A stretch of DNA of 38,743 nt, from positions 1-38,743 of the forward strand of contig CALGPJ010000065.1 of NCBI GenBank assembly GCA_937960645.1, in the 5' to 3' direction. Below, one piece after another: positions 34,941-36,488 of the stretch. The stretch is from an uncultured Spirochaetia bacterium. GTDB lineage: Bacteria > Spirochaetota > Spirochaetia > JABEVK01. The notes under the pieces are model-generated. The model searched no databases. It saw only the letters and a list, made by a program, of their open reading frames with translations, and had not been told where the DNA came from. A program made the translations under genes and the position numbers. The first letter of the stretch is position 1. Each line of letters opens with the position of its first letter.

Positions 34941-34956
34941 TGGCATGATTATTGCT
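34941..34956 (+). promoter_or_regulatory. Sigma-54 (RpoN) promoter
   Basis: TGGCATGATTATTGCT fits the sigma-54 consensus TGGCAYRNNNNTTGCW at every defined position, with the GG and GC at -24 and -12. Transcription would begin near 34967, 24 nt before the ATG at 34991. No activator binding repeats are obvious in the short space after the terminator at 34895. Confidence 0.75.
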
Positions 34957-34990
34957 TTACTCTATTACCAAAAGTCAAGGAGGAAAGTGT

Positions 34991-35836
34991 ATGGATAGTT
35001 TGACACAAAAGGTGATCCAGACCCAGGGTGGTGTCTCGGACCTCAGGCCTTTGATCAAGGAGGTGGGGGAACTCGCCTATCGAAGTTTGGCGGAGTGCTG
35101 GGGTCTCGGCCGGGATGACATCCACGAGATTTTTGCGGATTTTTATCCCAAGATCCCAACGATCATCCAGCGATTTCACTACACGGGAGCGAGCTTCGCG
35201 AATTATGTCACGGTTTGCCTCAAATACTCGCTCAAAAGGTATCGGAGTAAAAAATTGACATCGGTGGTGGTCCACGGGCTGGAACACGAGGCGGTGGACG
35301 AGACAGCCCAGGAAAATAGCATGCACGATTTTTCGACCCAGCCAGCAATTCCGAACTTGAGTTTGCTATCCACCGGAGTTCCGGGCAAGTTCAAAGAAAA
35401 AAGGAGGTACCACATTTTGGCACTACGCTACTCCTGGTTCCTCAGCGAGGAGCAAATTTCCCAACTTGCTTCAAAATTGGACCTCCCACCACTTACATTG
35501 CTGGACCAGGTTGAACGAATCAGACAGATGCTGCTTCCGCGTCACGTCAAAAAAATGGCGATTGCGGACAAAAGGTCGACCTGCTTGCAGAGGCTTTATG
35601 CCTTGCGCAATAAAGTCGTTGCTGAAACCCGCCCCGACCGACTGGAAAAAGCCCGGATTTTGGAATCGCGCCTTCTCGAAAGGCTCGAACGCCTCAGGGG
35701 CCAATTGGAATCCCTCTCGATGCTGCCCAGTTTGGACATGATCCACGCGGTCACAGGGGTGCCGCGTACCACCATTGCCGGGATGTTGCAGCGTTTATAT
35801 GCCAAGGAGCGTCGACGGCTGGGGTTGAACAACTGA
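34991..35836 (+). CDS. Divergent sigma-70-like protein, sigma-54 controlled
   Basis: A 281-residue soluble, mostly helical and basic protein that I do not recognise as a named family. Residues about 40-90 (GLGRDDIHEIFADFYPKI, then FHYTGASFANYVTVCLKYSLKRYRSKK in two parts) look like sigma-70 region 2: an acidic-aromatic helix, a turn and a basic helix. Residues 140-185 (HILALRYSWFLSEEQISQLASKLDLP) resemble the DNA-binding or region 3/4 helices, and the C terminus (AVTGVPRTTIAGMLQRLYAKERRRL) looks like a helix-turn-helix. The ATG is set by an AAGGAGG ribosome site; an in-frame start at 34952 would overlap the promoter. It may be an alternative sigma factor or regulator switched on by RpoN. Function is inferred. 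Confidence 0.65.
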   Translation: MDSLTQKVIQTQGGVSDLRPLIKEVGELAYRSLAECWGLGRDDIHEIFADFYPKIPTIIQRFHYTGASFANYVTVCLKYSLKRYRSKKLTSVVVHGLEHEAVDETAQENSMHDFSTQPAIPNLSLLSTGVPGKFKEKRRYHILALRYSWFLSEEQISQLASKLDLPPLTLLDQVERIRQMLLPRHVKKMAIADKRSTCLQRLYALRNKVVAETRPDRLEKARILESRLLERLERLRGQLESLSMLPSLDMIHAVTGVPRTTIAGMLQRLYAKERRRLGLNN

Positions 35837-35861
35837 GGGGATTGGATTATACAAGGTGGCC

Positions 35862-36488
35862 ATGAGCCACCTAAGCCGTCCCCTGGTCTGGGTTGCCGGC
35901 CTCTATGTCGGCGCCCAGATTCTCTCCGACATTTCCAGCCTCAGGATTCTGAGTCTCTTCGGCCTTTCCGTGGACGGAGGGACCCTGATCTATCCCATCA
36001 CCTTCACGCTTCGGGACCTCGTGCACAAAACCGGGGGCAAGTCGGCTGCCCGGGATGTGATCCTGGTGGCAGCCCTGCTCAACCTTTTCATGGCCCTGTT
36101 ATTCTGGCTTGTCGGGATCCTCCCTCCCGATCCGGCGGTAGGCTCCCAGGAGAGCTTCGGGGTTCTCCTCAGTCCGGTCTGGCGCATCGTCCTGGCGAGC
36201 ATCGTGGCCGAGCTGTTCAGCGAGTTGGTCGACGGTGAAATCTACAGCCTTTGGGTCAGGACACGGGGTCAAAAACGTCAATGGCTTCGGGTCCTGGTCT
36301 CCAACTCGGTGAGCGTCCCCCTGGACAGCCTGATCTTCAGCCTGGGCGCCTTCGCCTTCGATTTGAGCTGGGAAGTTGTCCTGGGAATCATCCTCGCCAA
36401 CATCGGCATCAAGTGGGGGGTGACCCTGCTCTCTCTCCCCCTGATCTACACCGTACCGGAAGGACAGACGTTCAACGGGGACGGCTGA
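35862..36488 (+). CDS. YhhQ/VUT-family queuosine-precursor transporter
   Basis: A 208-residue membrane protein with about five to six helices, of the YhhQ (VUT) family that imports queuine precursors such as preQ0 or preQ1. The family signature is visible in GTLIYPITFTLRDLVHKTGGKSAARDVI (split around 37-64) and VAELFSELVDGEIYSL, with VSNSVSVPLDSLIFSLGAF after. E. coli-type members have YP.T.l..D...e.yG at this place. The ATG at 35862 has AAGGTG before it; a GTG at 35856 is the alternative. It follows the sigma-like gene by 25 nt and overlaps radC by 17 nt. Confidence 0.82.
   Translation: MSHLSRPLVWVAGLYVGAQILSDISSLRILSLFGLSVDGGTLIYPITFTLRDLVHKTGGKSAARDVILVAALLNLFMALLFWLVGILPPDPAVGSQESFGVLLSPVWRIVLASIVAELFSELVDGEIYSLWVRTRGQKRQWLRVLVSNSVSVPLDSLIFSLGAFAFDLSWEVVLGIILANIGIKWGVTLLSLPLIYTVPEGQTFNGDG

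Follow-up and report, generated by a model that had tools for sequence, protein, structure and literature searches.

A predicted ECF-like sigma factor with a split or duplicated region 4, encoded behind a conserved sigma-54-type promoter in Spirochaetia

In the window, the whole 38,743-nucleotide stretch of DNA from an uncultured Spirochaetia bacterium that was analysed, one gene lies behind a sigma-54 (-24/-12) promoter sequence; its likely product is an alternative sigma-70-family sigma factor that stands nearest to the ECF sigma factors (group 4), carries a split or duplicated region 4, and would be switched on by RpoN. The promoter and its conservation, the gene neighborhoods, and the homology to regions 2 and 4.2 of sigma factors were computed here. 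In the proposed mechanism, RpoN together with an enhancer-binding protein would activate the gene at the -24/-12 site, the protein would bind core RNA polymerase via region 2, and region 2 and the C-terminal helix-turn-helix (HTH) would direct the polymerase to a set of target promoters; from the computed features we infer RNA polymerase binding, promoter recognition, a regulon, and a signal for the predicted sigma factor. The elements at the gene start are as follows.

34941-34956, plus strand: candidate sigma-54 (-24/-12) promoter TGGCATGATTATTGCT, an exact match to TGGCAYRNNNNTTGCW, with GC at 34954-34955
34977-34983, plus strand: good ribosome-binding site AAGGAGG, read from the sequence, 7 nt before the ATG
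34991-35836, plus strand: gene of the sigma-factor-like protein, an open reading frame of 281 aa plus stop, with homologs

Translation of the open reading frame yields 281 aa without an internal stop, and the gene is intact. It is present in a single copy in the genome (2.23 Mb, 75 contigs), which also encodes one RpoN, seven clear sigma-70 proteins, and 13 Sigma54_activat matches, among them perhaps some general AAA+ proteins. At G000:C34:669-1205 (L161), the same genome encodes another ECF-like sigma of 217 aa (E 1e-10), which is diverged and sub-threshold as well.

The reading frame is conserved as a protein. A simple protein search found homologs in 37 of 60 relatives (29 of 47 of good quality), at 18-32% identity and with at most one homolog per genome in that search. 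A scan of genome contigs with the single protein returned no relatives because divergence is too great, while a sub-alignment query succeeded. A profile built from 29 members, the window protein among them, has matches at about 20% identity in 287 of 393 Spirochaetota genomes, a count that includes weaker hits and in which weak matches outside the class may be ordinary ECF sigmas. By this search the family is widespread across the class Spirochaetia, with no profile match in G111 (1.1 Mb) or in the genomes listed for f19, a family with small genomes. The named loci with homologs all belong to Spirochaetes, including Rectinema and Treponema.

The candidate promoter TGGCATGATTATTGCT lies 50 nt upstream of the open reading frame, and the TGGCAYRNNNNTTGCW pattern occurs seven times in the 2.23 Mb genome, compared with zero occurrences of the reversed pattern. 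Among 67 unique family members with upstream sequence, scored with GG and GC required, 22 have a perfect site and 44 a site with at most one mismatch, where composition shuffles expect 0.13. In an enlarged set of 92 Spirochaetia members, 34 perfect and 23 one-mismatch sites add up to 57, located 27-87 nt before the start codon. At the same threshold of one mismatch, sites are absent from all 440 other genes of the same loci and from all 11 homologs outside the class. The sigma-54 control that the earlier note had proposed thus gains an exact and conserved site, and on this promoter evidence the sigma-like gene is very probably transcribed by RpoN.

About one third of the Spirochaetia members have no sigma-54 site. 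The expectation that these members lack RpoN failed, as their lineages mostly have it and RpoN is present in 78 of 80 genomes tested; missing sites are therefore not explained by missing RpoN. G401, the only well-completed genome tested that lacks RpoN, also has a gene copy without the site. In the family tree, a branch with support 97 sets the out-of-class homologs apart, and members with a site occur throughout the class, a distribution consistent with an old site that was lost repeatedly.

Sigma-70 ancestry of the predicted factor is supported by family-level profiles rather than by the window protein alone. Searched as a single sequence, the window protein matched no Pfam model, in agreement with the earlier note, which had placed it in no close named family, and TIGR02937 (sigma70-ECF) gave no match either. 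Its best NCBIfam match, the CASP-sigma model NF041236, is weak (E 0.0018, 18.2 bits against a cut-off of 100). Across the family, TIGR02937 matches 23 of 29 members (best 4e-10), with an alignment that spans their length and leaves a large gap for an insertion; the scores of the ten members shown are below the curated cut-off of 42.9 bits. In profile–profile comparison by hhalign, the N domain aligns to region 2 (prob 85, E 6e-6; reversed-sequence controls at least 0.2) and the C domain to region 4.2 (prob 96, E 6e-9; reversed-sequence controls 0.004-0.006), the reference being a profile made from 25 canonical ECFs of related genomes and the E-values those of single pairwise comparisons. A reference of only two ECFs was too thin and region 2 was not seen; it appeared with 25. 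Further, the best PDB profile matches of the region 4.2 segment are the ECF regions 4 of SigW, SigR, and SigH (E 0.003-0.01). The out-of-class homologs match the Spirochaetia family (prob 99.9, E 6e-31) and align with ECFs over their full length (prob 98.5, E 2.9e-15). The sigma-factor-like character first assumed from the single sequence is borne out at the family level, and on these alignments a sigma function of the protein appears probable.

Structure prediction gives a partial view of the same relationship. The full-length AlphaFold2 (AF2) model is all-helical (pLDDT 89.5, pTM 0.56), and Foldseek returned no significant match of it to any fold, so that no non-sigma fold over the whole length, the outcome that had been named as speaking against a sigma factor, came to light. 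The N domain modeled alone (pLDDT 93) has as its top match the T4 gp55 late sigma factor (7d7c; TM 0.74, prob 0.97, E 0.54, identity 14%), followed by the ECF ShbA (9isn; TM 0.66, prob 0.97), and most of its top ten matches are sigma region 2 structures, every one with E above 0.5. T4 gp55 is not known to have a region 4 HTH domain. The suggested structural resemblance to sigma factors hence holds for the identity of the leading N-domain matches, and did not reach significance by E-value or extend to the full-length model. The non-significant Foldseek E-values and the weak individual Pfam scores would be expected of an unrelated helical HTH protein that came to resemble sigma factors by convergence. 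We regard such an origin as extremely improbable, as both regions, 2 and 4.2, align in the expected order while the reversed controls stay clean, and the out-of-class homologs match ECFs from end to end.

With sigma-70 ancestry as the preferred reading, the protein can be divided into the following parts.

34991-35296, plus strand: region-2-like domain (residues 1-102), from hhalign to the ECF profile, AF2, and Foldseek
35108-35119, plus strand: position of the DAED-type acidic motif in region 2 (residues 40-43), GRDD in the window copy and xEDD in the family
35297-35347, plus strand: disordered linker (residues 103-119), AF2 pLDDT below 50
35390-35428, plus strand: helix matching region 4.1 (residues 134-146), from hhalign alignments
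35447-35713, plus strand: extra unit of a degenerate HTH-like segment and a long helical hairpin (residues 153-241), from AF2 and hhalign
35726-35818, plus strand: region-4.2-like HTH (residues 246-276), from hhalign and PDB profile matches

Of 29 members, 27 have at least two acidic residues in the region 2 motif, which serves beta-prime binding in ECFs (PMC8999054); conservation within the family is highest in the 4.2 HTH. The AF2 helices of the extra unit comprise residues 153-162, 167-211, and 215-241. On its own, this unit in the Spirochaetia profile gives a weak region-4-like match (prob 32) and is readable as a worn region 4. With the out-of-class homologs, the ECF profile gives a single alignment over its whole length, interrupted between 4.1 and 4.2 by an insertion of about 90 residues. 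A simple reading as tandem regions 4 was softened, since these homologs align better as one region 4 plus an insertion. Because the weak middle match and the single-insertion alignment point to different histories, region 4 is described as either split by, or duplicated around, a putative helical hairpin unit of about 90-95 residues.

Canonical ECFs consist only of sigma2 and sigma4 joined by a short linker and have a mass of about 20 kDa. The window protein shares with them the succession of region 2 and region 4.2, the DAED-type motif, and the lack of an evident region 1.1 (group 4; TIGR02937, Sigma70_r2, Sigma70_r4_2). It departs from their layout by its length (281 aa compared with about 180) and by the additional helical unit, about 95 aa long, that lies within or ahead of region 4, which agrees with the proposal that it has diverged beyond the shorter simple ECFs; moreover, the scores of the members shown do not reach the TIGR02937 cut-off, and the Spirochaetia copies have no adjacent zf-HC2 gene. 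The protein is thus ECF-like and is not filed as a canonical ECF.

The recognition helix of the window copy reads PRTTIAGM, the family signature PKGSVDSG being lost there and in the genus-mate. The homologs of genus g48 (L162-L164) differ at the C-terminus and have not conserved the recognition helix. The window copy, the genus-mate, and genus g48 may have changed in DNA specificity.

The non-conserved recognition helix in the window's genus and in g48, the strong divergence with an interrupted or duplicated region 4, and a top structural match to gp55, itself a minimal sigma-like factor, could also be read as signs of a regulator of sigma origin that binds RNA polymerase or a different sigma without initiating transcription, as a mimic, appropriator, or co-activator with the hairpin unit as its working part. 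We consider a regulator of this kind unlikely, given that the family has retained the acidic motif of region 2 and the 4.2 HTH and that the out-of-class homologs adjoin zf-HC2 proteins, as ECF sigmas do.

The usual Spirochaetia order, on one strand, is a DHH phosphoesterase gene (NrnA-like), the sigma-54 promoter, the sigma-like gene, rdgB (PF01725), and pepF (PF08439), with rdgB next after the sigma-like gene in 65 of 106 loci (median gap about 10 nt). The window copy lies outside this context, with an AMP-ligase-like gene upstream and a transporter gene downstream.

35856-36488, plus strand: Vut_1 family transporter gene, Pfam PF02592 E 9e-39, 19 nt past the stop

The Vut_1 gene takes the position that rdgB has in most relatives and is possibly co-transcribed with the sigma-like gene. 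The near contiguity of the sigma-like gene and rdgB in most relatives could mean that the promoter mainly serves the housekeeping operon (rdgB, pepF) and that the sigma-like gene is a passenger. It is very unlikely that this accounts for the site, as the genes of the window and its genus-mate are outside the operon yet have kept the promoter, which in positive cases precedes the sigma-like gene itself at short distance.

In Spirochaetia, no conserved zf-HC2 or CHAT neighbor is found beside the sigma-like gene. In contrast, several out-of-class homologs are arranged in the order CHAT-domain protein (PF12770), sigma homolog, and zf-HC2 protein (PF13490), so the search for conserved genomic partners that had been called for returned two different sets, nrnA-like/rdgB/pepF within the class and CHAT/zf-HC2 outside it. 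The CHAT copies keep His and Cys in most cases. At L175, L176, L178, L179, L198, and L199, the CHAT gene overlaps, and a zf-HC2 gene is also present where the contig continues. The flanking genes examined included no conspicuous CRISPR genes, and PADLOC gave nothing decisive. As this gene order is the usual look of a sigma factor with its inhibitor, the zf-HC2 protein would have an anti-sigma-like role. In Spirochaetia, control would then act chiefly at the sigma-54 promoter instead of through a neighboring anti-sigma factor, and relatives in other Spirochaetota classes would follow the classical scheme, with control by a zf-HC2 protein whose gene accompanies that of a CHAT protease.

Of the seven exact sites in the genome, six lie directly before a gene, namely amtB, Hsp20, an EAL protein, a CheY-CheX pair, a group-2 sigma, and the sigma-like gene, the names of the non-sigma genes having been read from the sequences by eye. 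AmtB is a classical sigma-54 target. The sites before the Hsp20-like gene and the EAL-domain c-di-GMP phosphodiesterase-like gene are at L204 and L205; the seventh exact site, at L202 (G000:C2:19435-19450), has no obvious gene directly downstream. The site of the group-2 RpoD/RpoS-like sigma is perfect (G000:C63:5600-5615, L207; also L126, L129, L133, L140, and L211-L227), and beyond the window's own genome a perfect site precedes this gene in 14 of 19 Spirochaetia genomes tested. A second sigma set (L134, L135, and L137) also has sigma-54 sites. RpoD, FliA-type sigmas, and canonical ECFs had none among those tested. With sites before both the group-2 sigma and the sigma-like gene, at least two sigma genes stand behind sigma-54 sites in this lineage. 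A tentative extension is an ancestral RpoN network of Spirochaetia in which sigma-54 drives the group-2 sigma and the unnamed sigma family, CHAT/zf-HC2 control having been exchanged for sigma-54; the full cascade from RpoN to the sigma factor as a class-wide feature is likewise put forward with reserve.

Related arrangements are known from other bacteria. In the RpoN-RpoS cascade of Borrelia burgdorferi, a second sigma factor gene is transcribed from a sigma-54 promoter (PMC3037356, PMC11109971). The likeness lies in a sigma-54 promoter before a sigma gene in a spirochaete; RpoS is a group-2 sigma, in contrast to the ECF-like window protein. HrpL is of canonical ECF length. This ECF32 factor of Pseudomonas syringae is transcribed from a sigma-54 promoter and controls type III secretion (PMC8999054); the likeness drawn here is one of regulatory logic, the sigma-54 link of the spirochaete family being conserved across the whole class. 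Type III-E CRISPR systems comprise a set of CASP-sigma, Csx30, and a CHAT protease (PMC10028731). CASP-sigma is the window protein's best NCBIfam match, and the out-of-class CHAT/zf-HC2 neighbors form a similar protease/sigma/inhibitor set; the bit score, however, is far below the NF041236 cut-off, and no type III-E neighbors were recognized in the window. In the part of the literature covered, we found no mention of the sigma-like family or of a class-wide sigma-54 link, and a sigma-54 regulon survey, which includes sigma genes among sigma-54 targets, reports neither this family nor a Spirochaetia sigma link in the passages covered (PMC12316311). An ECF under sigma-54 and a sigma-54-driven spirochaete sigma are each known separately; their conserved combination in an ECF-like subfamily appears to be new.

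The family offers a natural test of how an extra helical unit within region 4 affects a sigma factor, and the relatives with CHAT and zf-HC2 neighbors suggest that the Craspase sigma switch has a CRISPR-free counterpart. Work on the Borrelia RpoN-RpoS cascade has treated it as a special virulence switch. Should RpoN stand above one or two such factors across all of Spirochaetia, in Treponema-like, Sphaerochaeta-like, and free-living members, that cascade would look like one derived form of an older arrangement, which could then be studied in free-living laboratory spirochaetes.
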